Under the pieces are notes generated by a model that had not been told where the DNA came from, ran no database searches, and saw only the letters and a program-made list of their open reading frames with translations. The position numbers and the translations under genes were made by a program. A DNA stretch of 64,000 bases from the NCBI RefSeq assembly GCF_008271695.1, contig NZ_VKKY01000002.1, positions 1,178,001 through 1,242,000 of the forward strand, written 5' to 3'. Shown here piece after piece: positions 2,402-63,222 of this stretch. Each line of letters opens with the position of its first letter. Positions within the stretch are counted from its first letter, which is position 1. The DNA is from Rufibacter hautae (GTDB lineage: Bacteria > Bacteroidota > Bacteroidia > Cytophagales > Hymenobacteraceae).

Positions 2402-2438
2402 GTTTTTAGGCTTGTTTTCTGGAAATCAGCTTAAAAAC
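2402..2438. repeat. Dispersed ~36-nt palindrome (family R1), copy 1
   Basis: Starts GTTTTTAGGCTTG and ends CAGCTTAAAAAC, with a TTTTCTGGAAA centre. This is a member of the degenerate palindrome family found throughout the window's intergenic DNA. Confidence 0.75.
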
Positions 2439-2461
2439 ATCTTCAGACTAATCAGTGATTG

Positions 2462-2491
2462 TTGTAGGGGCACCTCTTGTGGGTGCCCTTT
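2462..2491. repeat. Short dispersed repeat (GTAGGGGCA...GGGTGCCC), copy 1; may also terminate
   Basis: TTGTAGGGGCACC, a short loop, then GGGTGCCC and a TTTT. The stem can work as a terminator for the LTA-synthase-like gene. The reverse complement of 40459-40488 has the same layout (TTGTAGGGGCA... CTTGTGGTTGCCC), so this is also a repeat family. Confidence 0.6.
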
Positions 2492-2558
2492 TGCTTGGGC
2501 AGTCGTATGATAATCTACCTTGAGAATTACTCGCGTGGCATAACGACGCTTGCTCTTG

Positions 2559-2594
2559 GTTTTAGACCTGATTTCCAGAAAACAGCCCTAAAAC
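2559..2594. repeat. Dispersed palindrome R1, copy 2
   Basis: GTTTTAGACCTGATTTC at the left and GAAAACAGCCCTAAAAC at the right, with only CA between the arms. One of the better preserved copies, about 75 nt upstream of mtaB. Confidence 0.8.
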
Positions 2595-2650
2595 AACCTT
2601 CTAACTGACAACTATCAACAGACAACTTATAACTATTTCCCGTTTCTCCG

Positions 2651-2658
2651 TACCTTTG
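2651..2658 (+). promoter_or_regulatory. -7 promoter box of mtaB
   Basis: TACCTTTG matches TAnnTTTG and ends 10 nt before the ATG at 2669, implying a very short leader. No convincing TTG box was found at the usual distance. Confidence 0.45.
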
Positions 2659-2668
2659 TGCCTTGATT

Positions 2669-3988
2669 ATGAAAAAGGTAGCATTCTATACATTAGGCTG
2701 TAAGCTCAATTTCTCTGAGACTTCTACCCTCTCCCGCATTTTCCAGGAGCGTGGGTTTGAGAAGGTGGAGTTTACAGACACCCCAGATATTTACGTCATC
2801 AACACGTGCTCCGTCACCGACAATGCCGACAAGAAATGTCGGAAAGTGGTGAAGGAAGCGCTCAAACACTCGCCTAACGCGTTCATTACCATTGTGGGCT
2901 GCTACGCCCAGCTCAAACCAAAAGAGATTTCCGAGATCCCCGGGGTGGATGCCGTTCTGGGCGCCGCCGAGAAATTTCAGTTGGTAGACATCCTGGAGAC
3001 GTTTGAGAAGAAAGACGCCCCGCAGGTCCACGCCAGCCCGGTATCGGAGGTCAATACCTTCGTGAACGCCTACTCCTTCGGGGACCGCACCCGTACGTTC
3101 CTCAAAGTGCAGGACGGCTGCGATTATTCCTGCACGTTCTGCACCATTCCGCAGGCCCGGGGCAAAAGCCGCAGCAACACCATTGAGAAAGTGGTAGCCG
3201 AGGCCCGCAGCATCGGGGACTCCGGCGTGAAAGAGATTGTGCTCACTGGCGTGAACACCGGCGACTTCGGGTTGCAAGAAGGCGTGCGCGTGGAGAACTT
3301 CTACCAGCTTATCCAGGAACTGGACCAGGTGGAGAACGTAAGCCGCTTCCGGATTTCTTCTATCGAGCCTAATCTTTTGAGTGAGGAGATCATCAATTTT
3401 GTGGCAGGCTCTCAGCGCTTTATGCCGCACTTCCACGTACCGCTGCAGTCGGGTAGTAACAAGGTGCTGAAACTCATGCGCCGCCGTTACCTGCGCGAGC
3501 TGTATGCCCAGCGGGTAGAATGGATCAAGACCGCCATGCCGCACGCCTGCATCGGCGTAGACGTGATCGTGGGCTTCCCCGGTGAGACCGAAGAAGATTT
3601 CCTGGAGACCTACAACTTCCTGAACGGGTTGAACATCAGTTACCTGCACGTGTTCCCGTACTCTGAGCGCGCCAAGACCCTGGCCTTGGATCTGCCGAGC
3701 GTAGTGCCGCAGAAAGAGCGGAACCGCCGCGCCGATATGCTGCGCATCCTGTCTGAGAAGAAAAAGCGCGCCTTCTACGAAAGCCAGATCGGGTACGAAG
3801 GAAAGGTCTTGTTTGAAGCCGATATCACCGATGGCTTTATGGAAGGTTTCACCGAGAACTACGTGCGCGTAGTAGCCAAATATGATCCAGTGCTGGTAAA
3901 CGAGCAGAAACATGTTCGGCTCACGAACATCACGGCTGCCGGATTAATGGAGGCTGAGGAAACGTACCATGAACTGCTGGCGCACTAA
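2669..3988 (+). CDS. mtaB: tRNA t6A37 methylthiotransferase MtaB
   Basis: A 439-residue radical-SAM methylthiotransferase that converts t6A37 to ms2t6A37 in ANN-decoding tRNAs. The N-terminal UPF0004 domain has the cluster-binding context TLGCKLN (Cys11), NTCSVT and VGCYAQ. The radical-SAM motif is DGCDYSCTFC (Cys151, Cys155, Cys158). A C-terminal TRAM-like region follows residue ~370. CKLN rather than CQMN after the first cysteine and the C-terminal ETYHELLAH region separate it from MiaB, encoded at 20970. A TTG at 2663 is in frame, but it sits directly behind the promoter box; ATG 2669 gives the usual MKKVAFYTLGC start. Single gene, flanked upstream by R1 repeats. Confidence 0.93.
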   Translation: MKKVAFYTLGCKLNFSETSTLSRIFQERGFEKVEFTDTPDIYVINTCSVTDNADKKCRKVVKEALKHSPNAFITIVGCYAQLKPKEISEIPGVDAVLGAAEKFQLVDILETFEKKDAPQVHASPVSEVNTFVNAYSFGDRTRTFLKVQDGCDYSCTFCTIPQARGKSRSNTIEKVVAEARSIGDSGVKEIVLTGVNTGDFGLQEGVRVENFYQLIQELDQVENVSRFRISSIEPNLLSEEIINFVAGSQRFMPHFHVPLQSGSNKVLKLMRRRYLRELYAQRVEWIKTAMPHACIGVDVIVGFPGETEEDFLETYNFLNGLNISYLHVFPYSERAKTLALDLPSVVPQKERNRRADMLRILSEKKKRAFYESQIGYEGKVLFEADITDGFMEGFTENYVRVVAKYDPVLVNEQKHVRLTNITAAGLMEAEETYHELLAH

Positions 3989-4103
3989 CGCGCTGCACCT
4001 ACACCATATAATAGAATGAAAATGCCCTGCCGGATTAATCTGGCAGGGCATTTCTGTTTTTGAAGCTGGAAAGATGCTGTTATTGAAATTAAGACACTAA
4101 AAA

Positions 4104-5156
4104 CTAAGCCGAAGAAACCTCTAGGTTGGTCTGCTGCCGCGCCATGCGCTGGGCCAAAATACTGGCGGCGATCAACTGCAGCGCGTGGTACAGCATAAGC
4201 GGCAAAAGGATAATGCCGACGATATTGGCATCGGGGAAAATGACCTTGGACATAACCGTGCCGTGCACCAACGACTTCTTGGAGCCGCAAAAGATGGATG
4301 TGATCCGGTTCTCGCGCGAGAAGCCCAGCAAATTTCCCAGCAGGTGAATCAGCCAGAAAACGAGGAAGAACAACGCCACCATGGCCCCGCCCAGCATCAG
4401 CAACTGCTGGGCACTAAAGCCTTTGAACATCTCCCGCGCGAAGGAATCGCAGAAAGAGGAATAGACGATGAGCAGGATAATGGTCTGGTCAAACAGCCGC
4501 AGCCGGCCCTTCTGCCGCTCGGCAAACGCCCCAAACCGTTTGTTCAGCAGCACGCCCAGCGTGACCGGCAGCAACACCTGCAGCATGAGTTTGAGAATGA
4601 TGCTGCCCAAGTCCATCTCGGCGGCCGAGCTGGTGCTCATGAACAGCCCCATCCAGAGCGGCGTCATAAACACCCCGATGAGGCTGGAGATACTGGCGTT
4701 GAAGATTGCAGACGGGATATTCCCTCCCGCAATGGACACCATCACCACCGAAGAAGACACCGTAGACGGCAGGGCCGCCACGTAAAACACCCCCAGCCAC
4801 AAGAGTTGGTTCTCACCTCTGCCCAGCAGCAGGTTTGCCAGAAACACCAGCATGGGAAACAGCAGGAACGTACTCAGCTGCACCACCAGGTGCAGGCGCC
4901 AATCGCTGAGGCCGGCTTTGAGTTTGGCGGGGCTGAGACGCAGGCCGTAAAAAAAGAATATGAGCGACACGCCATAGGTGGTGATCTCTTCCAGGGGCAA
5001 GGGTCCGTTCTCCTCGCCTACGTGCGGCCACAGGTACGCCAGCAGAATCATAGCCAAGAGCGCCAGCAGGAAATTGTCCAGCCCCAGGCGCTTCATGAAT
5101 TTACTCGCCCGCTCCCGCACCGGAACCAGGGCTACTCCGTTGTTTTCAGTTTCCAA
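4104..5156 (-). CDS. SBF-like (YfeH-type) sodium-dependent transporter
   Basis: A 350-residue polytopic membrane protein with about nine to ten hydrophobic segments (from LDNFLLALLAMILLAYLWP to MLYHALQLIAASILA). The pattern fits the SBF-like branch of the bile acid:sodium symporter superfamily, e.g. IFCGSKKSLVHGTVMSKVIF near the C-terminus and GVSLIFFFYGLRLSP near the N-terminus. The natural substrate of this branch is unknown; bile acid transport should not be assumed. The chosen start is TTG at 5156 because a strong GGAGGAG lies 5 nt upstream. A later Met before KRLGLDNF (codon 21) gives a more typical family length and cannot be excluded. Apparently monocistronic. Confidence 0.8.
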   Translation of the reverse strand: METENNGVALVPVRERASKFMKRLGLDNFLLALLAMILLAYLWPHVGEENGPLPLEEITTYGVSLIFFFYGLRLSPAKLKAGLSDWRLHLVVQLSTFLLFPMLVFLANLLLGRGENQLLWLGVFYVAALPSTVSSSVVMVSIAGGNIPSAIFNASISSLIGVFMTPLWMGLFMSTSSAAEMDLGSIILKLMLQVLLPVTLGVLLNKRFGAFAERQKGRLRLFDQTIILLIVYSSFCDSFAREMFKGFSAQQLLMLGGAMVALFFLVFWLIHLLGNLLGFSRENRITSIFCGSKKSLVHGTVMSKVIFPDANIVGIILLPLMLYHALQLIAASILAQRMARQQTNLEVSSA

Positions 5157-5581
5157 AGCAACTCCTCCGGCTTTAGTACAGGTGATTTTTTAGAACCCGT
5201 TTAAAGCCTTATTTTTAAAATTCAGCCCAAAAATAGAAGTACGAATCCCCGAGCTAAAGTTTTTCTCTATATAATAAAAAGGGTGCCGCTGGAGTTGTCA
5301 TTATTTTAGCCCCCACACTCCTTGTTCTTGCCCAGGCAAATCCTTCTTTGACCAGGCAACCATTCTGGGAGACAGCGCATCTAACCAAAGAAACCAAGTT
5401 GCTTCCTCTTTTTAGGTTTGATGGCCGGGTCAACCAGTATTCCGCTTAGCAAAAGAAGGTGCTTTTGGTCAATGACAGCTGATCAAATTTGGTCATGATT
5501 TTAAGAAACCAGCCTAAAAACGAATTAGATGCACTTCTTGTCACTCATAATAAATATTTTAAAATAATTTGAAACAGTACC
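5157..5581. other. AT-rich intergenic spacer, no gene seen
   Basis: Divergent spacer between the SBF-like transporter and the small gene at 5655. It contains one degenerate R1 copy near its end and no recognisable RNA or reading frame of note. Confidence 0.5.
5487..5521. repeat. Dispersed palindrome R1, copy 3 (left arm degenerate)
   Basis: The right arm AAGAAACCAGCCTAAAAAC is clear; the left arm is eroded. Confidence 0.45.
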
Positions 5582-5612
5582 TTGCTTTACATAGTACCTT
5601 ATTATATCTTTG
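5582..5612 (+). promoter_or_regulatory. Bacteroidota-type promoter for the small gene at 5655
   Basis: TTG at 5582-5584, a 20-nt spacer and TATCTTTG at 5605-5612. The expected start near 5618 gives a leader of about 37 nt before ATG 5655, which supports expression of that short frame. Confidence 0.55.
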
Positions 5613-5654
5613 TTTCATTCTTAGAGAAAAATACAACTTAATCCTTCAATAGCC

Positions 5655-5810
5655 ATGGAAACTTTAACCATCTTTCAGCTGCTCCTACAGGTATTGTGCT
5701 TCCTAGGCTCCTTTACAGCCCTGGTTTTCGCCTATGTGTACCTGTTGTCAGGCCACGGAGCATCTCGCCAGAAGAAAGCGTTTACCTCCCCTGGACCCTT
5801 CCACCTGTAG
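5655..5810 (+). CDS. 51-residue single-span membrane protein, unknown
   Basis: An ATG frame of 51 codons (METLTIFQLLLQVLCF start, SPGPFHL end) has one hydrophobic stretch at residues ~6-31, predicted to cross the inner membrane, and a short basic tail (ASRQKKA). It is supported by a good promoter at 5582-5612 and by occupying the gap before the outer-membrane beta-barrel gene at 5890, 79 nt downstream. There is no signal-peptidase site. I do not recognise a family. Such short membrane frames are often missed by gene callers. It could instead be a chance frame; protein conservation in relatives would settle that. Confidence 0.45.
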   Translation: METLTIFQLLLQVLCFLGSFTALVFAYVYLLSGHGASRQKKAFTSPGPFHL

Positions 5811-5889
5811 CCCTGAGGCTTTTTTTTTCTACATGTACCTTGTATAACCCAGTACTATAAAGTATCCAACTCCCAAAATTCATACCGAT

Positions 5890-8331: not shown

Positions 8332-8391
8332 TCTCTTGCCCTCCACTTTCTCCGGCTTACAATTAATTTTCTTAAATTGAGGCCTAAACCC

Positions 8392-8442
8392 ATGAACATG
8401 GTCCGCGGAAAACCATTCGCGGACCATGTTCATCCCTTTTTA
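8392..8442 (+). terminator. Strong hairpin terminator after the barrel protein gene
   Basis: Perfect 16-bp stem (8392-8407 with 8418-8433), 10-nt loop, followed by CCCTTTTT. Confidence 0.85.
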
Positions 8443-8461
8443 AAACAATTAACTACAGACT

Positions 8462-9112: not shown

Positions 9113-9133
9113 TCTGTGAAAATTTCAGATAGA

Positions 9134-9161
9134 AAAGCCTGGCTTCGGTCAGGCTTTTTTT
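9134..9161 (+). terminator. Terminator of the OmpH-like gene with TTCG tetraloop
   Basis: AAAGCCTG pairs with CAGGCTTT around a C(TTCG)G tetraloop, followed by a T run. Confidence 0.85.
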
Positions 9162-9183
9162 GTGCCCTTTTCAGAAAACCAGG

Positions 9184-10509
9184 TCAAAAAAGGCGGCGTT
9201 TGATGGCTGCCAATCTTATGCCTGCCTCCCTGGCGTAGTACGGGTGCTTGCTGTTTTCCACCACCTGCGCCCCATAGATGCCCGTGTGCCCCGAGAAAAG
9301 GTAAGCCACGGCACAAGCCAGGCCAGCGTACAAGCCAATGCTCCCGCCGAACAACTCCATGGCCATCAGCAGGCAAGCCAATGGTGTATTGGCTGCGCCC
9401 GCAAAAACCGCTACAAAACCTAACGCAGCCAGCAACTCCAGTGGCAAAGGAAGCCAGGGAAAAAGCGTGTTCCCCAAGGTGGCCCCAATGAAAAACAAAG
9501 GGGTTACCTCGCCACCCTTGAAGCCGCAGCCTAGCGTGAAAGCAGTCAATGCCAGTTTGACCAGAAAATCATGAGAAGGCAACTGGGTTGAAAAGGAAGC
9601 CAGGATAGTAGGAATTCCCAACCCGATGTACTTGGTGGTACCCAGAGACCAGATAACCAAAGCCAATACCAACCCACCCACTACTGGCCTGAGCGGCGGA
9701 TAGGCTACATGTTTCTTGAAAGTGTTTCCCACGGCGTGAGAGGCTACAGAGAAAAGCCGGGCGGCCAGGGCAAAGCAGATGCCTGCCAGCAAGGTAGCCC
9801 CCAGGGTCCAAACGGTCATGGACGGTACTTCCACCACGGGGTACAGGGTATGCCCTACACCCCAGGCTGAGGTCACCGCATCAGCGATGATGGCTGCCAG
9901 GAAAGAAGGCAAAAGCGCATTATACCTGAGTTGCCCCAGCAGGAAAACCTCCAAAGCGAACACTGCCCCCGCCAGCGGCGTCCCGAAAACAGAGGCAAAC
10001 CCGGCACTCACGCCGCAGATCAGGAGCATTTTCCGGTCGCGTGGCCGCAGCTTGAAAACAGTCGTAAGCTGATCGGCGAGGGCGCCGCCCATTTGCACGG
10101 CTGTGCCCTCGCGGCCCGCTGACCCGCCTACCATATGCGTCAGCACGGTAGCCACCAGCACCAACGGTGCCATGACCAGCGGAATCTTTTTAGACGAAGG
10201 CGTTTGGATGGCCTGCAACAGGAGATTATTGCCACCTTCGGCTTCGCGGCCCCACTGGTGATAAACCCAACCCACCAGAAAGCCGCCCGCGGGTAAAAGC
10301 CAGATAATCAAGGGATGGGTTTCCCGGTAGCTGGTTGCCAAATCGAGCAAGACCAAAAACAAGGCCGAGGCGCTGCCCGCCATGACGCCTACCAGCAAGG
10401 CAAGCCCCAACCAGCGGAACAGGTATTTTGAATTCAGGTAAAAATCAAGCGGAAAAGAACTCCTAAAGAAAGCAGAAAAGGAAAATCCAGGCTTCTTGAA
10501 AAAGGACAT
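9184..10509 (-). CDS. CLC-family anion/proton antiporter, fluoride-type motifs
   Basis: A 441-residue polytopic protein of the CLC superfamily. The GREGT motif (132-136) carries the gating Glu. The usual chloride-filter sequence GSGIP on helix D is replaced by GGNNL (92-96). The third motif reads GFKGGEVTP (329-337) instead of GxFxP. As I recall, these substitutions are shared by the CLC-F fluoride/proton antiporters, which protect cells from fluoride, so fluoride export is the favoured role (inference). ATG 10509 (MSFFKKPGF) was chosen; upstream in-frame starts at 10517 and TTG 10536 only add a polar leader. No fluoride riboswitch was found upstream. It follows the MacB-like permease by about 100 nt on the same strand. 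Confidence 0.85.
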   Translation of the reverse strand: MSFFKKPGFSFSAFFRSSFPLDFYLNSKYLFRWLGLALLVGVMAGSASALFLVLLDLATSYRETHPLIIWLLPAGGFLVGWVYHQWGREAEGGNNLLLQAIQTPSSKKIPLVMAPLVLVATVLTHMVGGSAGREGTAVQMGGALADQLTTVFKLRPRDRKMLLICGVSAGFASVFGTPLAGAVFALEVFLLGQLRYNALLPSFLAAIIADAVTSAWGVGHTLYPVVEVPSMTVWTLGATLLAGICFALAARLFSVASHAVGNTFKKHVAYPPLRPVVGGLVLALVIWSLGTTKYIGLGIPTILASFSTQLPSHDFLVKLALTAFTLGCGFKGGEVTPLFFIGATLGNTLFPWLPLPLELLAALGFVAVFAGAANTPLACLLMAMELFGGSIGLYAGLACAVAYLFSGHTGIYGAQVVENSKHPYYAREAGIRLAAIKRRLF

Positions 10510-11847: not shown

Positions 11848-11974
11848 GTTTTCTCTGTAACCAGTACCCAGTCTACTATTTGTCGTACAACTGAGCGCTT
11901 TCTTACTGTTATAAAAGTAATGGTTTTCCCGTTTATTGCCCGATTTTCTTAAATTCGTTCCAAACCGATTACTG

Positions 11975-13254: not shown

Positions 13255-13416
13255 CTTGTAGCGTCGTTACACCGTAACGACGTGGCTTTGTGAAACTATT
13301 ACCATCATTAAACCAACGGTTTATCTACACAGCAATTTTAACGAAAAAGGAATGTGGAGGGAAGAAACGCTCTAGCTGCGTAGAGCTACGTCGTTACGGT
13401 GTAACGACGCTACAAG
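13255..13416. repeat. 29-bp perfect inverted repeat, each arm itself palindromic
   Basis: 13255-13283 and 13388-13416 are exact reverse complements. Each arm contains CGTCGTTAC and GTAACGACG around 3 nt. They enclose 104 nt between two convergent genes. Related fragments (ATAACGACGC) occur near 2540. Confidence 0.9.
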
Positions 13417-24397: not shown

Positions 24398-25978
24398 ATG
24401 AACAAAGCGGCGTTTTTAAATATTGTCCGGCAGGTTGCCCCTATCCAGGACCAGGAAGTTGATGACCTGGAGCGCTTGGTGGTGTCTTTCCCGTACTGCC
24501 AGACCGCCCATGTTCTGCTGGCCAAGGCGGCCCATGACCGGGGCAGCATGCTCTCAACCCAGAAACTGAGAAGAGCCGCCGCTCATGTTTCTAACCGGCA
24601 GTTACTGAAGCAATTGGTATACGCCACCCCTTCGGTAGAGGAAACTCCTACCTATGTAGAAGAGGAACTGGAGACTTCTAACCATTCTGTTTCTGGTCAG
24701 ATTTTAGAAAATGAGCCACAAAACGAGGTGTTGGCTTATGAGGAAGAACCTGAAGTACTTGCTGCTGAGCCTGAAACCGATGCCGTAGAAACTCCTCTCC
24801 TTCTAAATGAGGAGTTGGAGGAGTCAATTGTTGACCTTGCGCCAGTTGCAGAGGAGACCTTTGATGCGCTTGCAGTAGAGGAACCAGCGTTAGACTTCAC
24901 TGAAGCTGAGCAAGAATCAGTTTATGTTCCTGTACCGGATGAGGCAAATGAACCTAGGCCTGAGCAACCAGAAATTGAGCTAGAGGCACCTGTTATTAAA
25001 GAGGAATCAGCGCTCGTAGAAGAAATCACTTCAGAAGACAATGTGTCTGAACCTGAGGCTTCGTTGGTTGAAGAACCAGAAATGGCCTTCGAGTCAGAAG
25101 CCATAGCAACTTCTGCAGAGGTGGAAGAAGACATTGAGGTGGACGTAGACGTGGATGTTTCTCTCTCTGAGGAAGAAGACAATTTGGATGAGTTGCTGGA
25201 GCTGATTCAGATCAGTAGCCTTGCCTCTTTCAGTGCGCCCATACCCAGCGTAGACCTTTCGCATGAAGAAATTGTCTCAGAGCTAACCTCGACCGGAGAC
25301 ACTTCCTATACTGAAGAAGAGACTGCCTTACTGGCCGCTACCTTGCCTCCGCATGGCGTGGCCCTCACCGGCAAAGAAGAGGATAAAGGCTTAAGCGCTT
25401 ACCTGGAGATTGCCGAACTGGACTCCTTGTATGATACCTCGGGCTATGAGTTTCCTACCTTGAAACTGCCGGAGGTAATCCAGAACCCTGCCGCCCAGGA
25501 GAACCAGGATCCTTACTTGTCCATCTTCACCCAGAACAACTTGGCCTACTGGATGGGCTCCAGCCGTCTGGGAGAGAGTATCCAACTCAAGGATGACCTC
25601 ACCTCGGTAACGCCCTTCTACTTCCAGCCCGAATTGATTCTGGAGCATGTGAAGGAAAAGAACGCGCCGGCACCGGCACCTGAGGTGAGCCCTACCGCCA
25701 AGTTGGACATGCAGCTGGACATCATCAACCAGTTCCTGAAGGCTACGCCCAAGCGGAAAACCCTGGCCAACGCGCAACTCAGCCAGGAGCCGCAGGAAGA
25801 TTTGTCTGCCAAGAGCTCCAAGATCAAGAAGAACCTGGTGTCTGAAAACCTTGCCCTCATCCTCATTAAACAGGGAAAAGGCAAGAAAGCCATCAAAATT
25901 TATGAACAACTTATAGTGAAGTTTCCCGAAAAAAAGAGTTACTTTGCTGAACAAATTGAAAAATTAAGAAACGAATAG
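24398..25978 (+). CDS. TPR-containing protein with long acidic linker, unknown role
   Basis: A 526-residue protein. The N-terminal helical region (FLNIVRQVAPIQDQEVDDLERLV, FPYCQTAHVLLAKAA, ~1-75) is conserved in Bacteroidota. A strongly acidic low-complexity segment (~80-300, rich in Glu, Val, Pro, with an EDIEVDVDVDVSL run) follows. The C-terminal part holds a basic patch (ATPKRKTLANAQ) and one clear TPR unit (ENLALILIKQGKGKKAIKIYEQLIVKFPEK, ~484-513). No signal peptide, so probably cytoplasmic. Codon use in the acidic segment is visibly more AT-rich than around it, as expected for a fast-evolving linker. secG starts 8 nt downstream, suggesting one transcript. Function unknown. Confidence 0.7.
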   Translation: MNKAAFLNIVRQVAPIQDQEVDDLERLVVSFPYCQTAHVLLAKAAHDRGSMLSTQKLRRAAAHVSNRQLLKQLVYATPSVEETPTYVEEELETSNHSVSGQILENEPQNEVLAYEEEPEVLAAEPETDAVETPLLLNEELEESIVDLAPVAEETFDALAVEEPALDFTEAEQESVYVPVPDEANEPRPEQPEIELEAPVIKEESALVEEITSEDNVSEPEASLVEEPEMAFESEAIATSAEVEEDIEVDVDVDVSLSEEEDNLDELLELIQISSLASFSAPIPSVDLSHEEIVSELTSTGDTSYTEEETALLAATLPPHGVALTGKEEDKGLSAYLEIAELDSLYDTSGYEFPTLKLPEVIQNPAAQENQDPYLSIFTQNNLAYWMGSSRLGESIQLKDDLTSVTPFYFQPELILEHVKEKNAPAPAPEVSPTAKLDMQLDIINQFLKATPKRKTLANAQLSQEPQEDLSAKSSKIKKNLVSENLALILIKQGKGKKAIKIYEQLIVKFPEKKSYFAEQIEKLRNE

Positions 25979-33971: not shown

Positions 33972-34011
33972 GAAAGTTTTTGCCGTATTTTTGAGAAATC
34001 GGCTCTTAAAC
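33972..34011. repeat. Dispersed palindrome R1, copy 9, overlapping a promoter box
   Basis: GAAAGTTTTTGCC at the left, GGCTCTTAAAC at the right. The TATTTTTG at 33986-33993 lies in its centre. Confidence 0.5.
33986..33993 (+). promoter_or_regulatory. -7 box candidate for rsmE
   Basis: TATTTTTG, 28 nt before ATG 34021, inside an R1 repeat copy. Confidence 0.4.
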
Positions 34012-34020
34012 TTTACCCTA

Positions 34021-34734: not shown

Positions 34735-34761
34735 TGTTTTAAGCTTCTTTTCTGAAATACC
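34735..34761. repeat. Dispersed palindrome R1, copy 10 (left half)
   Basis: GTTTTAAGCTTCTTTTCTGAAA, ending at the start codon of the DUF4159 gene; the right arm is replaced by coding sequence. Confidence 0.5.
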
Positions 34762-35427
34762 ATGCAAAAACGGCTTCTTCTCTGGTGTTTGCTTTTCCTA
34801 CTGGCTGCCGGCACATCCTGGGCCCAACGCCCTAGTTTCCGGATTGCCCGCCTCAAGTACGGCGGCGGCGGCGACTGGTACGCCAACAAAACCTCCTTGC
34901 CCAACCTGATCTCTTTCTGCAACCGAGAGCTGAAGGCCAACATCGCGCCGCAGGAAGAGACCGTGGAGCCCGGCAGCCCCGAGTTGCTGGACTATCCTTT
35001 CGTGCATATGACGGGCCACGGCAACGTGATCTTTACGGAGGCCGAGGTCCAGAACCTGAGGAAGTATCTCACCGGCGGCGGCTTCCTGCACATAGATGAC
35101 AACTACGGCTTGGACAAGTTCGCGCGCCGCGAAATGAAGAAAGTCTTCCCCGAACTTGATTTTATTGAGTTGCCCTTCAACCACCCTGTTTATCACCAGA
35201 AATTCGATTTTCCCAGAGGTCTGCCCAAAATCCATGAGCACGACAACAAACCGCCGCAGGGTTTCGGGATTATCTACCAGGGCAGATTGGTGTGTTACTA
35301 TTCTTATGAGTGTGATTTAGGAAACGGTTGGGAAGACCAGTCGGTGCACAATGACCCGGCCGAAAAGCACCAGGCTGCCCTGCGCATGGGCGCTAACCTG
35401 ATCTCGTACGCCTTGACTAATTTTTAG
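34762..35427 (+). CDS. DUF4159 domain protein, secreted
   Basis: A 221-residue protein with signal peptide LLLWCLLFLLAAGTSWA (cleavage before QRPSF, residue ~21). The DUF4159 domain covers the rest: RIARLKYGGGGDWYANKTSLPNL, PFVHMTGHGNVIFTEAEV, GGGFLHIDDNYGLD, and IYQGRLVCYYSYECDLGNGWED. The fold resembles class I glutamine amidotransferase/trehalose-utilisation-like domains, but the function is unknown. In other Bacteroidota, DUF4159 genes lie near MoxR/von Willebrand factor-type envelope gene sets; that context is absent here. Probably read through from rsmE. Confidence 0.85.
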   Translation: MQKRLLLWCLLFLLAAGTSWAQRPSFRIARLKYGGGGDWYANKTSLPNLISFCNRELKANIAPQEETVEPGSPELLDYPFVHMTGHGNVIFTEAEVQNLRKYLTGGGFLHIDDNYGLDKFARREMKKVFPELDFIELPFNHPVYHQKFDFPRGLPKIHEHDNKPPQGFGIIYQGRLVCYYSYECDLGNGWEDQSVHNDPAEKHQAALRMGANLISYALTNF

Positions 35428-36212: not shown

Positions 36213-36590
36213 AATTATATATAAATGGTTAGAAAATGTGAATGCACTTCCTGAGTCCTGGCTTCTCGCCAGCACATGTCGTTTTCTATACGGGGTTATG
36301 TACCTACAGTTATTTTGAATCAGGTTTAAACTGGTCATACTCTTATAGTTGCAACCAAGCAGGTCTTGCAAGCGAGCGGTGACTGAACACTTTCGCCGAT
36401 CTCAGGGTTATGTCTTCCAACTTAGGTGGACATAGAAGGCAGGAAGATAAGTTGGTACAAGGAGGTTTAAGGACGAGGTTCTGCCGGCCCAATTGATTTC
36501 TGATTTGAAGCTAGTTTCCGGAAAATGGCCCTAAAACAAACATCCTCCTCAATCCAGCTCCTGAATTGTTTAACTCAACACTCTTTTTTG
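36213..36590. other. Intergenic spacer between wrbA and smc, no gene seen
   Basis: About 410 nt between divergent genes. It holds one R1 copy near 36502 and no frame longer than about 20 codons with a credible start. Confidence 0.5.
36502..36537. repeat. Dispersed palindrome R1, copy 11
   Basis: GATTTGAAGCTAGTTTCC then GGAAAATGGCCCTAAAAC, 36 nt with a perfect TTTCC/GGAAA centre. Confidence 0.75.
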
Positions 36591-40207: not shown

Positions 40208-40267
40208 AAACGCGTCTGCCGTTTAGGGCCTGGTTTGTGAAAACAGGTTCTAAACGGCAGTCGCGTT
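40208..40267. repeat. Dispersed palindrome R1, copy 12, extended to 60 nt
   Basis: Outer arms AAACGCG and CGCGTTT plus CTGCCGTTTAG and CTAAACGGCAG surround the R1 core CCTGGTTTGTGAAAACAGG. Sits 17 nt after smc and could act as its terminator. Confidence 0.85.
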
Positions 40268-40380
40268 TTTAGTGGAATAGAGTTTCAAGATGCATTTTAC
40301 TTTCTGCCCTCTTGTTCTTCCCTCTTTGTCATCTTAGTTTGGTACCTAGAATAACGTAGAGGAAAACTTATAGCCGTTGT

Positions 40381-40510: not shown

Positions 40511-40555
40511 AAGTGTTTTCAGACCGATTTATATAAAACAGTCTAAAAACACTTT
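40511..40555. repeat. Dispersed palindrome R1, copy 13
   Basis: AAGTGTTTTCAGACCG then TATATAAAACAGTCT and AAAAACACTT; the arms extend to 45 nt. It lies 20 nt past the end of the minus-strand acyltransferase gene. Confidence 0.75.
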
Positions 40556-43581: not shown

Positions 43582-43617
43582 GTTTTATAGCCTGTTTTTA
43601 GAAAAGAGCCTGTAAAC
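43582..43617. repeat. Dispersed palindrome R1, copy 14
   Basis: GTTTTATAGCCTGTTTTTAG then AAAAGAGCCTGTAAAC, 36 nt, filling the 48-nt gap between accA and the MBL gene. Confidence 0.75.
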
Positions 43618-43621
43618 GGAA

Positions 43622-44764: not shown

Positions 44765-44802
44765 CATCATCAAACGGGGACAATAGGTCTCCAGAAGATG
44801 TT

Positions 44803-44876
44803 GGTCCGGTAGTTCAGTTGGTTAGAATGCCGCCCTGTCACGGCGGAGGTCGCGGGTTCGAGTCCCGTCCGGACCG
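44803..44876 (+). tRNA. tRNA-Asp (GTC), copy 1
   Basis: A 74-nt cloverleaf. Acceptor GGTCCGG pairs with CCGGACC. D arm GTTC/GAAT. Anticodon stem CCGCC/GGCGG with loop CTGTCAC (anticodon GTC). T arm GCGGG/CCCGT with loop TTCGAGT. Discriminator G; the CCA end is not encoded. The sequence is identical to the copy at 46107. Confidence 0.97.
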
Positions 44877-44877
44877 C

Positions 44878-44910
44878 AAAAGCCCCTCAAAAACTTGAGG
44901 GGCTTTTTTT
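44878..44910 (+). terminator. Terminator of tRNA-Asp copy 1
   Basis: AAAGCCCCTCAA pairs with TTGAGGGGCTTT around a short A/C loop, followed by TTTT. Confidence 0.88.
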
Positions 44911-45672: not shown

Positions 45673-46035
45673 GCACCACTATTAGCACCATCACCAACCC
45701 TCCTCCTTCTTATTACAACAACTATATTCTAGGCAGTAAAGAGTAGCTTAAATAGGCCAAAGCCATCTTAGAACTATATGGCCGGTAAATCTGCTAGTAA
45801 CTAGGCAGTTTGTATTCCTAATTTATTGTTGGCTTTATTTCCCATTATATATAGAGAAGGAAGAGTAATCCTTGTTGATGGTTTGGCTTTTTTATTAATA
45901 TGGAGTGAATTCACCTTTGATTGAGTTAGAACCAGTTACAAAGTAGCAAGGTGAATAAGGCATACTTTTATAAAAGAACGCTTAAAACAGAAACTAAAAG
46001 GTGATGGATAAATTTTAACGTTTTAGAAACTTTCG
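45673..46035. other. AT-rich spacer before tRNA-Asp copy 2, nothing identified
   Basis: No open frame, RNA signature or repeat that I can support. Confidence 0.45.
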
Positions 46036-46067: not shown

Positions 46068-46106
46068 CAGCATCAAAACGGAGACAGCTGGTCTTCAGAA
46101 GATGTT

Positions 46107-46180
46107 GGTCCGGTAGTTCAGTTGGTTAGAATGCCGCCCTGTCACGGCGGAGGTCGCGGGTTCGAGTCCCGTCCGGACCG
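46107..46180 (+). tRNA. tRNA-Asp (GTC), copy 2
   Basis: Identical over all 74 nt to the copy at 44803. The 47 nt upstream are also similar (GCAGCATCAAAACGGAGAC against GCATCATCAAACGGGGAC, then TTCAGAAGATGTT against CCAGAAGATGTT). The following terminator differs in sequence. Confidence 0.97.
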
Positions 46181-46191
46181 CAGTTTACAAG

Positions 46192-47726: not shown

Positions 47727-47785
47727 AAAAGTAAGAAGCCCCGGGGCTGCTCAAAGTTTGAGCAGCCCCGGGGCTTCTTACTTTT
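47727..47785. terminator. Perfect 29-bp-stem hairpin, probable terminator
   Basis: 47727-47755 and 47757-47785 are exact reverse complements with a 1-nt centre. The stem contains the self-complementary GCCCCGGGGC. It lies 29 nt past the L,D-transpeptidase stop codon, with TTTT at either end. Confidence 0.8.
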
Positions 47786-56443: not shown

Positions 56444-56460
56444 ACTTTCAATATATTGCC

Positions 56461-56649: not shown

Positions 56650-56657
56650 AGCTGTCT

Positions 56658-56693
56658 GTTTTTAAGCTGATTTAAGGAAAACAAGGCATAAAC
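56658..56693. repeat. Dispersed palindrome R1, copy 18, touching the permease stop
   Basis: GTTTTTAAGCTGATTTAAG then GAAAACAAGGCATAAAC; the last base is in the permease stop codon. Confidence 0.7.
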
Positions 56694-57469: not shown

Positions 57470-57471
57470 GG

Positions 57472-58434: not shown

Positions 58435-58612
58435 GGTCTTGCGGGTTGGATAGTCCAAATGAACACCTTCCCTTCGCCTGCTGCAACTAAACTATACCAA
58501 CGGCCCGTCCACCGGGACCAACCCCGGGATTCTCCCCCTCAACCCTTTCGTCGATACAAAACCAGGCTTGGTCTAGTTCTTGGGAAATGTGCAGGATAAG
58601 CTCCGCTGAATG

Positions 58613-58651
58613 GTTAGTTTTGGGCTCGTTTCTAAGAAAATGATGAAAAAA
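58613..58651. repeat. Dispersed palindrome R1, copy 19, overlapping the kinase start
   Basis: AGTTTTGGGCTCGTTTCTAAG at the left, then AAAATGATGAAAAAAC. The kinase ATG codons at 58640 and 58643 lie in the right arm. Confidence 0.5.
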
Positions 58652-59689: not shown

Positions 59690-59706
59690 ACCGCTACCTT
59701 CACCAG

Positions 59707-60435
59707 ATGCAACTGACCTGCCTCGCCATTGACGATGAACCGCTCGCGCTGGACATCATGCGCTCCTACATCGGGAAGATTCCTTTTCTACAGTTGGTGC
59801 AGACCTGTTCCAGTGCCCTGGAGGCCATGGCGGTTTTGCAGCGGCAACCGGTAGACTTGCTGTTCCTGGACATTGAGATGCCTGAGATCACCGGCGTGCA
59901 GTTTGTGCAGTCGCTCTCGCACCGGCCAGCGGTCATCTTCACTACGGCCTATCCGCAGTATGCCCTGGACGGTTTCACCCTGGATGCGGTGGATTACTTG
60001 CTCAAGCCCATCCCCTTTGACCGGTTCTTCAAGGCGGTGAACAAAGTCTACGAGCGGGCCCAACTGCAAGCCGCCACTCCCTCACCTTCTTTGCCAGTTC
60101 TGCCCCAGACAGACACCGAGGATTTCATCTTTGTGAAGGCAGATTACAAGACCTTGCGGGTAAACCTGAAAGACATTCTTTTCATTGAAGGTTTGAAGGA
60201 CTACGTGATCATCCACACGGTAAGTCGCAAGATTATCACGCTGTTATCCATGAACAAGATCATGGAGAAAATACCCGAGCAGGACTTCGCGCGCGTGCAC
60301 CGGTCCTATATCGTGTCGCTGGCGCACATTGAGAGCATTGAGAAAGGCCGGCTCAAGATCAAGGACCAGGAAATCCCTATTGGCGACAGCTACAAAGAGG
60401 TTTTCATGCGCTGGGTGGAAAGCAAGAACCTTTAA
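59707..60435 (+). CDS. LytTR-family response regulator
   Basis: A 242-residue regulator. The receiver domain (1-115) has the acidic pair DDEPLALD, phosphoacceptor Asp55 in LFLDIEMP, and Lys in LLKPIPF. The C-terminal LytTR DNA-binding domain (~135-242) shows DFIFVKADYKTLRVNLKDILFIEGLKDYVIIHT and FARVHRSYIVSLAHIESIEKGRLKI. Cognate partner of the kinase at 58643 (17 nt apart). The divergent ABC transporter is a natural target (inference). Confidence 0.93.
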   Translation: MQLTCLAIDDEPLALDIMRSYIGKIPFLQLVQTCSSALEAMAVLQRQPVDLLFLDIEMPEITGVQFVQSLSHRPAVIFTTAYPQYALDGFTLDAVDYLLKPIPFDRFFKAVNKVYERAQLQAATPSPSLPVLPQTDTEDFIFVKADYKTLRVNLKDILFIEGLKDYVIIHTVSRKIITLLSMNKIMEKIPEQDFARVHRSYIVSLAHIESIEKGRLKIKDQEIPIGDSYKEVFMRWVESKNL

Positions 60436-60445
60436 CAGACCGTTT

Positions 60446-60480
60446 GTTTTAGGTGTGTTTTCCCAAAATCAGTCCTAAAA
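60446..60480. repeat. Dispersed palindrome R1, copy 20
   Basis: GTTTTAGGTGTGTTTTCCC then AAAATCAGTCCTAAAA, 10 nt after the response regulator stop. Confidence 0.75.
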
Positions 60481-60556
60481 AGACTTTTCTAACCAAGGGT
60501 AAAAGGTGACCATTCTGGCTGGATTTCTGTAGCATCAGCGCTGTTTTCAAGATTTC

Positions 60557-60592
60557 GATTTAGGGCCTCTTTTCTGAAAACAGGAGCTAAAC
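60557..60592. repeat. Dispersed palindrome R1, copy 21
   Basis: GATTTAGGGCCTCTTTTC then TGAAAACAGGAGCTAAAC, 36 nt; one of the clearest copies. Confidence 0.8.
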
Positions 60593-60653
60593 GGCTCTTC
60601 CATAAGTCCTGAACAAACGTTTGTCACTCGTACGGATTACCGATGCAATCCTG

Positions 60654-60661
60654 TATCTTTG
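60654..60661 (+). promoter_or_regulatory. -7 promoter box of dapA
   Basis: TATCTTTG, 32 nt before ATG 60694; the TTG box is not clear at the normal distance. Confidence 0.45.
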
Positions 60662-60693
60662 GGCGCTTTTAAAAATCCTTCAAAACAACAGAC

Positions 60694-61572
60694 ATGCAAG
60701 CATTAAGAGGAACAGGTGTGGCCTTGGTAACTCCCTTCCAAGCCGATCTTTCCGTAGACATTGAAGCCTTCGGGCGCCTGATTGATTTCAACATTGAGAA
60801 TGGCGTGGATTACCTAGTGGTGAACGGCACCACCGGCGAATCGGTGACCACCTCACCCGAAGAAAAAACCCAGCTACTGGCTTTTGCTAAGGAACGCATT
60901 GCCGGCCGCAAACCACTGGTATATGGCCTGGGCAGCAATGACACGCACTATGTGCTGGAGCAACTCAAAAAAATAGATTTCACCGGCGTAGACGCCATTT
61001 TGTCGGTTTGCCCTTATTATAACAAACCCTCGCAGGAAGGGGTGTTCCTGCATTACACCGCCATTGCCGATGCCTCTCCCGTGCCGGTGATTTTGTACAA
61101 CGTGCCCGGCAGAACCGGCATCAACATCTCCGCGGCTACTACCCTGCGCCTGGCCAAGCATCCCAATATCATCGGGACCAAAGACGCCAGCGCCAACATG
61201 GAACAGTATATGACCATTCTGGAGGAAAGACCAGAGGGGTTCCTGGTGATCTCCGGCGATGATATGCACACCGTTCCGTTGATCTCCGTGGGCGGGGATG
61301 GCATTATCTCCGTGTTGGGCAATGCGTTTCCAGAACGGTTCAGCCGTATGACGCGCCTGGCCCTGGAAGGCAACTTCACCGAGGCCGGGGCGCTACAACG
61401 TTCCTTCGGGAAAATCAACCCGCTTATGTACGAAGAGGCGAACCCTGTGGGCATTAAACTGGCCTTGAAGGAAGCCGGTATCTGCGAGCCCTTCGTTCGC
61501 CTACCCCTGGCTCCTGCCTCTGCCAGCCTGGTGGAACGCGTGCAGGTTGCGGCGGCTCCTCTATTACGGTAA
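60694..61572 (+). CDS. dapA: 4-hydroxy-tetrahydrodipicolinate synthase
   Basis: A 292-residue class I aldolase that condenses pyruvate and aspartate semialdehyde on the path to lysine and diaminopimelate. Landmarks: GTGVALVTPF at the start, NGTTGES (pyruvate site), Tyr135 in YNVPGRTG, and the Schiff-base Lys163 in GTKDAS. Length is normal. Expressed from its own promoter; the next gene starts 32 nt downstream. Confidence 0.96.
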   Translation: MQALRGTGVALVTPFQADLSVDIEAFGRLIDFNIENGVDYLVVNGTTGESVTTSPEEKTQLLAFAKERIAGRKPLVYGLGSNDTHYVLEQLKKIDFTGVDAILSVCPYYNKPSQEGVFLHYTAIADASPVPVILYNVPGRTGINISAATTLRLAKHPNIIGTKDASANMEQYMTILEERPEGFLVISGDDMHTVPLISVGGDGIISVLGNAFPERFSRMTRLALEGNFTEAGALQRSFGKINPLMYEEANPVGIKLALKEAGICEPFVRLPLAPASASLVERVQVAAAPLLR

Positions 61573-61577
61573 GCTTA

Positions 61578-61613
61578 GTTTTAAGCCCATTTTTCAGGAA
61601 ACAGATGAAAAAC
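61578..61613. repeat. Dispersed palindrome R1, copy 22, covering a start codon
   Basis: GTTTTAAGCCCATTTTTC then AGGAAACAGATGAAAAAC. The ATG at 61605 of the next gene lies in the right arm, and AGGAAACAG might double as a weak ribosome-binding site. Confidence 0.6.
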
Positions 61614-62561
61614 CCTCTGCTGCTGGCGCTTATGCTATTTTGGCTAGTGACCAAATCCTATGGTCAAACGGAAGCGCCAGCCGTTGGGGCGCCAATTGAC
61701 CTGGAAACCCAGAAAGGCACCATCAAAGGCACCTTGCTCCTGCCCGCCACGGCCGGAAAGATGCCGGTGGTGCTGCTTATTTCAGGCTCCGGTCCCACCG
61801 ACCGCGATGGCAACAATCCCGCCATGAAAAACAACAGCCTGAAAATGGTGGCCGAGGCCTTTTACGCGCAGGGAATCGCCTCGGTACGATTTGACAAACG
61901 CGGAATTGCAGCCAGTAAAGAAGCGGCCCTGTCAGAGTTCGATCTCCGGTTCGATCATTACGTGCAGGATGCCGTCGCTTGGATCCAGAAGCTGAAAGGC
62001 GACCCGCGGTTCAGCAAAGTAGTGGTGCTGGGCCACAGCGAGGGTTCTCTTATTGGCATGGTCGCTGCCCGCCAAGCGCAAGCCGATGCCTTCATCTCTG
62101 TTTCCGGCGCCGGCCAATCCGCCGATAAGGTCCTCCGGCATCAATTGCAGGGTCAGCCACCCATGGTGAAGGAAGCCGCTTTCCCTATCCTGGACCAACT
62201 GGCGCAGGGCAAAGCCGTGCCGGAAGTTACCCCCATGCTGGCCTCGCTGTTTCGGCCCAGCGTGCAGCCGTATCTTATCTCATGGTTCAAGTTTGATCCG
62301 CAGGTAGAGCTGGCCAAATTAAAGATTCCAGTGTTGGTGGTACAAGGAACGGCAGATCTGCAGGTGAGTGTGCAGGACGCCCATTATCTTATGGGTGCAG
62401 CAGGCAAAGGCCAACTCGTTCTCCTTGACAACATGAACCATGTGCTCAAGGAAACCACCTCTGACCGCAACGCCAACCTCAGCACCTACTCCAATCCTTC
62501 TTTGCCGCTGGCCGCTGGCCTCACGCCCGCACTGGTGACGTTTGTGAAGGCTGTTAAGTAG
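61605..62561 (+). CDS. Secreted alpha/beta-hydrolase
   Basis: A 318-residue hydrolase with a signal peptide (LLLALMLFWLVTKSYG, cleavage before QTEAP, ~21). The mature part has the alpha/beta-hydrolase core: VVLLISGSGPTDRDGN (oxyanion region, ~47-62), nucleophile elbow GHSEGS with Ser145, and a late LVVQGTADLQV (catalytic Asp region) and NMNHVLKE (His). Likely an esterase acting in the periplasm or outside; the substrate is not known. Possibly co-expressed with dapA, though that link is weak. Confidence 0.85.
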   Translation: MKNPLLLALMLFWLVTKSYGQTEAPAVGAPIDLETQKGTIKGTLLLPATAGKMPVVLLISGSGPTDRDGNNPAMKNNSLKMVAEAFYAQGIASVRFDKRGIAASKEAALSEFDLRFDHYVQDAVAWIQKLKGDPRFSKVVVLGHSEGSLIGMVAARQAQADAFISVSGAGQSADKVLRHQLQGQPPMVKEAAFPILDQLAQGKAVPEVTPMLASLFRPSVQPYLISWFKFDPQVELAKLKIPVLVVQGTADLQVSVQDAHYLMGAAGKGQLVLLDNMNHVLKETTSDRNANLSTYSNPSLPLAAGLTPALVTFVKAVK

Positions 62562-62574
62562 AGGAAATCAGGCA

Positions 62575-63096
62575 GTGAGAAGACTATTCAGAACTTACCA
62601 CAGGCAATTCACCTTCGAGTTTCACCAACCGAGGAAACTGATTCGAGAGTATATCTTACACCAAAAGCACCGAAACAAAAGCTTACTAGACGCGCTCACC
62701 GCCTTTCCGCTCGTCTACAGCCAGGTCACCATTACCGGAGACAACCTATTGGAGATCAGTATTCCTCAAAAAGGGAGGATTGTGATTTCCCTAATCAGCA
62801 ACCAAGATAAGTTGAGCACTCGAATGGATTGCGAGATCATTCCCTACTTTAACGGGAACATCTATGGGTTTTACTTCTTTAATATCTTTCTCACCCTACT
62901 ATCAGCCATCGGTCTTCTCCTACAAACCAACTGGTTTATGGTGACTGGGCTTATATGCACTTGGGGTTTACCCTTTATAATCTTCCACTTGACGAGAAAA
63001 TGGAACATAGACCAACTAAGGGAGGAGTTGGAGGGCTTTGTAAAAGATATTAGCCTGCAGACAAGCAAAAAGAAATCTAGCTACAGGTCCTCCTGA
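62575..63096 (+). CDS. Membrane protein of unknown function
   Basis: A 173-residue protein starting with GTG at 62575, 13 nt after the hydrolase gene. A basic N-terminal domain (~1-95) is followed by two adjacent membrane segments (YGFYFFNIFLTLLSAIGLLL and WFMVTGLICTWGLPFIIFHL, ~97-139) and a cytoplasmic tail ending KKKSSYRSS. No known motif. Same-strand closeness suggests co-transcription with the hydrolase gene. Less GC-rich than its neighbours. It could be a recent acquisition or simply fast-evolving. Confidence 0.65.
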   Translation: MRRLFRTYHRQFTFEFHQPRKLIREYILHQKHRNKSLLDALTAFPLVYSQVTITGDNLLEISIPQKGRIVISLISNQDKLSTRMDCEIIPYFNGNIYGFYFFNIFLTLLSAIGLLLQTNWFMVTGLICTWGLPFIIFHLTRKWNIDQLREELEGFVKDISLQTSKKKSSYRSS

Positions 63097-63162
63097 AAAG
63101 ATCTTGTGGGCTAACGTTTATTGCTTTTCTCCAGGTCTTCTGAATTCAGCGCCACCGTTTTA

Positions 63163-63222
63163 ACAAGTCTGCCCGATTAGGGGCTGTTTAATTGAAAACA
63201 GCCCCTAATCGGGCAGACTTGT
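63163..63222. repeat. Perfect 27-bp hairpin around an R1 core, likely bidirectional terminator
   Basis: 63163-63189 and 63196-63222 are exact reverse complements around a 6-nt loop (AATTGA). The core GGGGCTGTTT/AAACAGCCCC follows the R1 pattern. It lies between two convergent genes. Confidence 0.9.

Follow-up and report, generated by a model that had tools for sequence, protein, structure and literature searches.

Why does a bacterial chromosome carry the same long palindrome about every 2 kb, mostly between its genes and sometimes within them? The question is raised by a 64,000-nucleotide stretch of the Rufibacter hautae genome (NZ_VKKY01000002.1, positions 1,178,001 to 1,242,000; hereafter the window), in which an initial annotation had noted a degenerate palindromic repeat of ~36 nt, here termed R1. 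We followed R1 through the window, through samples of the 5.84-Mb genome to which the window belongs (family Hymenobacteraceae; G000, other G-numbers denoting the genomes compared) and through genomes of other species and genera. R1 emerges as a genus-specific, dyad-symmetric site that is conserved in place, and it appears to behave as a double-strand site for a putative binding protein rather than as a mobile element or a hairpin.

A dyad-symmetric site of 38 bp

An iterated symmetric weight matrix, seeded with the copies of the initial annotation, defined R1 as a site of 38 bp rather than ~36 nt, in which two 18-bp half-sites flank a 2-bp centre. The half-site consensus is CGTTTTAGGCCTGTTTTC, with the mirror half opposite. 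Each half contains two near-invariant T-tracts (consensus GTTTT each) lying 11 bp, approximately one helical turn, apart. In G000, with half-positions numbered from 0, conservation of the T residues at 3, 4, 14 and 15 is 96-98%, and at 5-13 the most frequent base reaches only 36-70%. The spacer was 2 bp in 42/42, 43/44, 46/47 and 45/45 sites of four species with strict copies.

With this matrix, 254 sites scoring at least 20 bits were detected in 464 kb of G000. Twenty column-permuted matrices returned a mean of 0.25 sites (maximum 2), and none were found when the half-site was reversed or the sequence locally shuffled; the repeat thus withstood the shuffling check proposed in the initial annotation. 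Bit scores are inflated, the matrix and the matches of each genome being drawn from the same data, and permuted matrices and other species served as controls. The copies originally listed are present, and a direct-repeat search places many of them into groups. The estimate of ~22 copies, one per ~3 kb, was too low, since the window holds 35 sites of at least 20 bits, one per ~1.8 kb. Extrapolation from the 464 kb gives ~3,200 sites per genome in G000, and 155 sites in twenty 20-kb chromosome samples of G013 (4-12 each) extrapolate to ~1,690. In four other species the G000-learned matrix found 37-46 sites per 100 kb scoring at least 20 bits, and a matrix-free dyad search recovered R1 in both G000 and G013. 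The same search applied to three sister genera (200, 100 and 100 kb) yielded nothing comparable, and the R1 matrix gave 0, 1 and 0 matches of at least 18 bits in those samples.

R1 occurs in species dialects: cGtTTaggggCtstTTTT in G004, cGTTTTyGGscTcaTTTc in G012 and CGTTTTTgGccTgTTTtC in G013, with G006 nearly alike. A one-gene tree of 16 species was too poorly resolved to place them. The strictness of the copies also varies, from 12.6-15 bits per half (G000, G014, G003, G008, G015) to 20-26 bits (G013, G006, G012, G005, G004).

R1 is specific to Rufibacter and rare on plasmids

The skeleton GTTT-N9-TTT-N4-AAA-N9-AAAC was present in 186-1561 exact copies in each of 16/16 Rufibacter genomes, in which the reversed skeleton occurred 0-2 times. 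Elsewhere in the family, 134 genomes from other genera had only 0-3 copies, and 394 other genomes sampled from the phylum had 0-4. An exact palindromic pattern with 32 fixed bases matched 23 stretches among the genomes of 84,980 species, all 23 from Rufibacter. Rfam covariance models at gathering scores matched two tRNAs in the window and left R1 unmatched, and titles and abstract openings of open-access literature on Rufibacter, Hymenobacteraceae and Bacteroidetes repeats contained no description of an R1-like element.

Plasmid contigs were ~6- to 20-fold poorer in R1. The Rufibacter tibetensis plasmid NZ_CP012644.1 has 2 sites in 100 kb, whereas 40 kb of the G008 chromosome holds 13-16; contig C2 of G012 has 3-5 in 60 kb, and contigs C4 and C5 of G000 have 1 in 20 kb each. 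The last three contigs bear TraM-type or Rep3 genes. Two 7.5-kb contigs with 3 sites each (G000:C6 and G008:C3) were taken as chromosomal by their gene content and left out of the plasmid counts. The small G000 contigs C7 and C8 (5.3 and 0.8 kb) have no R1.

In a viral collection of 2.9 million contigs, a looser R1 pattern matched exactly in a single contig. The IMG/VR contig IMGVR_UViG_2839759663_000002 carries one strong R1 (46 bits; L212:1275-1310) adjoining an unrelated terminator-like hairpin; this stretch is possibly host flanking sequence.

Half-sites are paired and sites are conserved in place

Half-sites of at least 18 bits occurred overwhelmingly in pairs, the paired and lone counts being 81/0 in G013, 72/0 in G005, 78/0 in G012, 78/1 in G006, 96/2 in G004, 69/2 in G009 and 183/7 in G000. 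In G000 and G013, covariation between the arms was assessed separately for each gene context. Coding (z = 0.1), co-directional (0.4) and divergent (-0.4) sites of G000 showed none, which indicates that selection there does not act on strand pairing, and convergent sites covaried (6.6). The corresponding values in G013 were -0.4, 1.2, -2.8 and 2.5. With contexts pooled, covariation was detected in G000 (3.8), G005 (3.1) and G009 (3.5), and none was clear in G013 (-0.9), G006 (-1.4), G012 (1.8) or G004 (1.4). The suggestion of an RNA-processing site lost ground on these grounds and because R1 also lies in divergent regions.

Sites were retained at orthologous positions. When 39 window sites of at least 14 bits were compared with G014, 38 could be mapped, with 33 orthologues of at least 18 bits, 4 weaker and 1 absent. 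By species pair, R1 was kept in 18/21 mapped cases from G013 to G006, 17/18 from G006 to G013, 6/7 from G013 to G012, 6/7 from G012 to G006, 19/21 from G005 to G009, 32/33 from G000 to G014 and 13/14 from G005 to G004, a further 2-18 sites per pair being unmappable. Remoter relatives keep fewer window sites of at least 18 bits (e.g. 10/18 in G008 and 4/8 in G001). Among the pairs listed, the spans between aligned flanks agreed within 3 bp in 12/14 cases for G013-G006 and 5/14 for G005-G009. The filled and empty sites that mark an inserted element were not the pattern seen in three species pairs (18/21, 19/21 and 32/33 kept), and the original suggestion that R1 had been mobilised is not borne out.

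Conservation was concentrated in the skeleton. In aligned intergenic orthologues with a 2-bp centre, skeleton positions were 87%, 93%, 90% and 94% identical (references G000, G013, G005 and G004, respectively), compared to 65%, 74%, 62% and 60% for other R1 positions, 83%, 82%, 78% and 77% for TTT/AAA elsewhere and 76%, 72%, 72% and 74% for other intergenic bases. As judged from these alignments, selection has held the T-tracts while the positions between them drifted.

One R1 site lies within an M1 peptidase gene. In Rufibacter, 15/15 of the orthologues shown score 18-33 bits; the lowest scores belong to G013 and G006, in which one T-tract is broken. Orthologues of other genera scored at most 0.1 bits at the same position (9/9) in alignable sequence, and the site therefore arose by substitution, not insertion. 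This comparison covered the 24 of 29 genomes with a close orthologue, excluding four distant genomes and G001, whose match was fragmented.

R1 thus presents the features of a protein-binding dyad: fixed spacing, independent halves and conserved contacts. A symmetric protein whose subunits each bear two recognition modules would fit these findings.

R1 sites are evenly spaced in most genomes tested

The gaps between R1 sites were compared with random placement within coding and non-coding DNA. Spacing was more even than random in G000 (coefficient of variation (CV) 0.97 vs 1.13) and in six other genomes (0.67-0.89 vs 1.11-1.19). Close pairs were clearly fewer than random in G000, G013, G006, G005 and G004 and slightly fewer in G009; in G012 they were not (12 vs 12.1 expected).

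A stricter null reassigned occupied and empty status across the whole sample among intergenic regions matched for orientation and length, with a single site counted per region; it does not keep local gene density. Under this null the CV of intergenic sites was 0.68 vs 0.81 in G013 and 0.47 vs 0.71 in G012 (0/500 permutations each), 0.55 vs 0.80 in G004 (P = 0.006), 0.66 vs 0.83 in G006 (P = 0.012), 0.59 vs 0.72 in G009 (P = 0.044) and, as a borderline case, 0.67 vs 0.85 in G005 (P = 0.066). The stricter null was beaten in 5/7 genomes, and gene layout is therefore not the full explanation of R1 spacing in most genomes tested.

A putative chromosome-organising protein

The reading that we favour, tentatively, is that R1 is the double-strand binding site of an abundant symmetric protein specific to Rufibacter, whose main job would be to mark or fold the chromosome. 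The putative protein would be dimeric or tetrameric and would have arisen in, or be peculiar to, the genus; a dimer bearing two recognition modules per subunit could span the 38 bp. It may mark or fold the chromosome at quasi-regular intervals of ~2 kb, from sites placed where genes would be least disturbed, mainly just past stop codons and in convergent intergenic regions. In the latter some sites would have been further co-opted as bidirectional hairpin terminators, as their covariation suggests. A chromosome-organising role would explain the even spacing, the presence along the whole chromosome, the selection in place and the rarity on plasmids. Of the readings offered in the initial annotation, only that of a nucleoid-protein site survives, but no such protein was found. 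The site itself, its symmetry, near-constant pairing, conserved skeleton, placement, regularity in most tested genomes and scarcity on plasmids are observed; protein binding and the organising role are inferred.

Several observations weigh against this proposal. The window genome shows no extra regularity under the stricter null (CV 0.85 vs 0.79, P = 0.878), and when coding sites were added (P = 0.000 in G013, 0.002 in G012, 0.012 in G004, 0.002 in G006, 0.100 in G009, 0.102 in G005 and 0.916 in G000) just 4/7 genomes remained below 0.05. The spacer is looser in genomes with degenerate copies (2 bp in 235/260 sites of G000 and 8/16 of G008), and lone halves exceed the permuted control (0.2-0.7) in G000 (7 vs 0.7), G004 (2 vs 0.3) and G009 (2 vs 0.6). 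The information per site, 31 bits for G000 and 52 bits for G013, is far above the ~11 bits needed to locate that many sites, and thus more than simple binding would require. The bias towards gene 3' ends and the gaps at ribosomal operons, detailed below, could point to a role in transcription. Finally, domain counts for HU, HTH_ParB and Resolvase showed no genus-wide gain and identified no R1-binding protein.

Among these candidates, HU was rejected as a genus-specific factor because one strong match per genome occurs in the 16 Rufibacter and in relatives alike, with a weak second match in some of both. A Noc-like ParB paralogue was likewise rejected, each of the 16 Rufibacter having exactly one HTH_ParB match and relatives 0-3. 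Serine recombinases were considered because R1 has a 2-bp centre; Resolvase matches numbered 1-10 in Rufibacter and 1-7 in nine other family members, with no visible gain, and such an enzyme is not strictly excluded by these counts, which leave orthology aside.

ParB at parS, Noc and MatP at matS are chromosome-organising systems with symmetric chromosomal protein sites. R1 differs from them in its estimated 1,700-3,200 copies per genome and in the lack of a second HTH_ParB gene in 16 Rufibacter. To our knowledge, no bacterial chromosome is organised by a long, high-information site at the density of R1. A bolder form of the proposal is a sequence-encoded chromosome ruler, in which a genus-specific symmetric protein occupying thousands of sites at ~2-kb intervals, maintained by selection also within genes, would package the chromosome or mark it as self; we consider this possible, if somewhat doubtful.

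R1 sites in the window

The 35 window sites of at least 20 bits are listed below; no strand is assigned to them. Ten lie in or overlap coding sequence, as do 46/254 in the 464-kb sample, so that the earlier statement that nearly all copies lie between genes was too strong, although most do. The copies reported over stop and start codons were confirmed, one start codon being possible only.

995-1032: R1 in a sulfatase-family gene; 27.3 bits; kept in G014
2402-2439: R1, co-directional intergenic; 36.5 bits; the same intergenic region of G014 has R1
2558-2595: R1, co-directional intergenic; 42.8 bits
5198-5235: R1, divergent intergenic; 33.2 bits
5485-5522: R1, divergent intergenic; 27.6 bits
6190-6227: R1 within a gene; 36.1 bits; one-base difference in G014
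9155-9192: R1, convergent intergenic, adjoining an intrinsic-terminator-like hairpin; 29.3 bits; just 15.3 bits in G014
11930-11967: R1, divergent intergenic; 25.1 bits
13421-13458: R1, convergent intergenic; 25.7 bits
14231-14268: R1, co-directional intergenic; 29.8 bits
19389-19425: R1, co-directional intergenic; 36.3 bits
19951-19988: R1 in a chorismate-binding-enzyme gene; 29.3 bits; in 2/2 mapped relatives (G014, G003)
24688-24725: R1 within a gene; 32.9 bits
26440-26477: R1, co-directional intergenic; 35.6 bits
28739-28776: R1, convergent intergenic, after a Cpn60-family gene; 31.6 bits
33165-33202: R1 within a gene; 25.6 bits; missing in 3/5 mapped relatives
33975-34012: R1 within a gene; 30.2 bits; in 5/5 mapped relatives
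34735-34772: R1 at the junction of a co-directional gene pair; 29.0 bits; in 4/5 mapped relatives
36501-36538: R1, divergent, upstream of the SMC gene; 34.3 bits
38975-39012: R1 within the SMC gene; 27.4 bits; at least 18 bits in 6/9 mapped relatives
40208-40268: R1 (40220-40256) with extended hairpin arms, convergent intergenic, inverted repeat I10; 35.6 bits; at least 18 bits in 9/9 mapped relatives
40514-40551: R1, convergent intergenic; 33.4 bits; footprint across relatives
43582-43618: R1, co-directional intergenic, next to the acetyl-CoA carboxylase alpha gene; 33.0 bits; at least 18 bits in 11/11 mapped relatives
45952-45989: weak R1 between two tRNA genes; 22.5 bits
46317-46353: R1 after the second tRNA gene; 25.8 bits
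51023-51059: R1 in the M1 peptidase gene; 26.2 bits; Rufibacter orthologues 18-33 bits
53224-53261: R1, convergent intergenic; 35.1 bits
55580-55617: weak R1 in an SDR-family gene; 24.4 bits
55769-55806: R1 over a stop codon; 29.6 bits
56657-56694: R1 reaching into a stop codon; 33.7 bits
58616-58653: R1 over a possible start codon (histidine kinase gene); 26.5 bits
60445-60482: R1, co-directional intergenic; 35.8 bits
60556-60593: R1, co-directional intergenic; 31.8 bits
61577-61614: R1 over a start codon; 30.8 bits
63163-63222: R1 (63174-63211) with perfect 27-bp extended hairpin arms, convergent intergenic, inverted repeat I9; 32.5 bits

The two longest palindromes of the window (40208-40268 and 63163-63222) are R1 sites with lengthened hairpin arms, both between convergent genes. 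Two further inverted repeats do not belong to the R1 family: a perfect 29-bp repeat with a 1-nt loop at 47727-47785, and one at 13255-13416 with 44-nt arms, 86% complementary and 74 nt apart. The tRNA genes lie one each in 107-bp copies that are 95% identical and 1.3 kb apart (44772-44878 and 46076-46182); in this region G014 has ~13 kb of extra DNA, whose genes look like sugar utilisation genes.

R1 compared with DNA-uptake sequences and HIP1

An explanation that we judge unlikely is that R1 is a self-mark akin to a DNA-uptake signal: a Rufibacter receptor would prefer R1-bearing DNA, and biased uptake with recombination (molecular drive) would spread and sharpen the sites. According to PMC3630211, the DNA uptake sequences (DUS) of the Neisseriaceae occur in thousands of copies and in dialects, at permissive intergenic positions and as inverted pairs tied to terminators, signs that R1 shares, and dyad-symmetric overlapping DUS were noted in Simonsiella. 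The distribution of uptake sequences has also served to spot integrative elements (PMC7371117). Like DUS and the uptake signal sequences (USS) of the Pasteurellaceae, R1 is restricted to a taxon, present in thousands of copies (extrapolated for R1) and divided into species dialects. A self-mark would explain the even spacing, the occurrence along the whole chromosome, the selection in place and the rarity on plasmids, and drive would explain the excess information and the dialects. However, R1 is a dyad spanning 38 bp, its centre is mostly fixed at 2 bp, its host belongs to the Bacteroidota, and it is rare in genes (46/254 coding in G000, 13/214 in G013). Moreover, DUS are described as short units also acting singly, whereas R1 halves are rarely alone (0-7 lone vs 69-183 paired per sample).

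A second highly iterated palindrome confined to one group is HIP1 of the cyanobacteria, for which PMC4390886 reports alternates in some members. R1 resembles it in this respect. HIP1, however, is 8 bp long and linked to methyltransferases, whereas R1 has 38 bp, T-tracts and a free centre, and it does not fit the HIP1 pattern.

R1 and transcription-unit boundaries

We consider it improbable that R1 is a bidirectional transcription-unit boundary, at which a bound protein would act as a roadblock to RNA polymerase arriving from both directions and a hairpin would be present in some of the convergent regions. The placement of R1 relative to genes, which were called by our own simple hexamer method so that context counts are approximate, provides the case for this view. 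The 254 G000 sites comprise 110 co-directional, 59 convergent, 37 divergent and 46 coding sites, with 2 at edges, corresponding to densities per kb of ~2.9 (co-directional), 4.7 (convergent), 1.8 (divergent) and 0.1 (coding). The 214 G013 sites of at least 18 bits are distributed as 116, 59, 26 and 13, respectively. Half of the G000 centres lying at most 200 bp past a stop codon (100/200) fall at 20-60 bp, and co-directional sites lie nearer the upstream stop, at a mean relative position of 0.29-0.36 of the stop-to-next-start distance in four genomes. Most convergent regions of at least 60 bp carry R1 (49/57 in G000, 48/65 in G013), and it is there that the arms covary in both genomes.

Six stretches of more than 5 kb in the G000 sample lack R1 of at least 16 bits. 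The longest (15.2 kb; G000:C3:296.7-312.0 kb) contains the genes for L3, SecY, an M24 peptidase and RpoA, identified with Pfam as the S10-spc-alpha operon, and the second (9.1 kb; G000:C3:279.3-288.4 kb) those for EF-Tu, NusG, L11, L1, L10 and RpoB; such gaps at ribosomal operons are consistent with a boundary. In the remaining four stretches (5.3-6.2 kb), the proteins examined were a TonB receptor, an LptD/OstA-type protein, a ComA-type enzyme and an oxidoreductase.

Against a boundary, plasmid genes mostly lack R1, sites also occur in divergent regions and inside genes, and intrinsic terminators are not replaced by it. Terminator-like hairpins in co-directional regions with and without R1 numbered 24/84 vs 13/67, 20/99 vs 17/83, 12/36 vs 7/24 and 6/24 vs 5/24; R1 as a replacement for them was rejected, as there is no anticorrelation and hairpins are at least as frequent where R1 is present. 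R1 resembles intrinsic bidirectional terminators in that convergent copies of G000 covary, and differs in that 217/254 sites lack a T run and other G000 contexts lack covariation. A covarying hairpin followed by a T run is thus not its general form, as the initial annotation had recognised in noting that most copies lack one: 37/254 have a T run on either side, and covariation appears just in convergent regions. Because the arms covary there, some convergent copies, such as the two longest palindromes of the window, probably double as terminator hairpins.

R1 and mobile repeats

A mobile repeat of the repetitive extragenic palindrome (REP) or miniature inverted-repeat transposable element (MITE) type, spread by a REP-associated tyrosine transposase (RAYT) or another transposase, is very unlikely. 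Its appeal lies in the high copy number and intergenic preference of R1, in the near-consensus copies of some species and in the presence of RAYT genes. R1 resembles REP and bacterial interspersed mosaic elements (BIMEs) as a many-copy intergenic palindrome, and BIMEs are also located between convergent genes. R1 differs from them in that its arms mostly lack covariation, its positions are conserved across species and both RAYTs inspected in G000 use another REP.

G000 has 6 RAYT matches, 2 of them above the family cut-off (L017:1195-2178, C1 at ~1.296 Mb; L018:1054-1840, C2 at ~0.189 Mb). The initial annotation had proposed looking for a RAYT gene flanked by R1; each of these two is instead flanked on either side by a distinct palindrome, AAGTT(T/A)..GCG..TAACTT, which has one match in the 464-kb sample. 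One of the two genes is followed by R1, as many genes are. Nor does RAYT presence track R1: G006 has no RAYT above the cut-off and 607 skeleton sites, and the sister-genus genome G021, with 17 RAYT matches, lacks any match to the skeleton. The RAYT flanks, the genome distribution and the general lack of arm covariation rule out R1 as a RAYT-associated REP, the reading first suggested. The mostly filled orthologous positions and the origin of the M1 peptidase site by substitution further oppose mobility. Transposon ends were also rejected, the 13 lone half-sites of at least 16 bits in G000 (the genome searched) forming no visible flanked pair.

That R1 comprises functionless relics or a compositional artefact, as the degenerate G000 copies (15 bits per half) might suggest, can be dismissed in view of the position-specific conservation of the skeleton in orthologues and the permuted, shuffled and sister-genus controls.

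Implications

Rufibacter as a genus holds conserved symmetric sites by the thousand, for the most part evenly spaced and missing from its sister genera, and R1 is retained genus-wide in at least one coding sequence. These sites would represent either a new abundant chromosome-organising protein, the role that we tentatively favour, or DNA self-marking in the Bacteroidota in a new dyad form. The dialects of R1 provide a natural experiment in the joint change of a protein and its many thousand sites, and both readings are testable in cultured soil bacteria.

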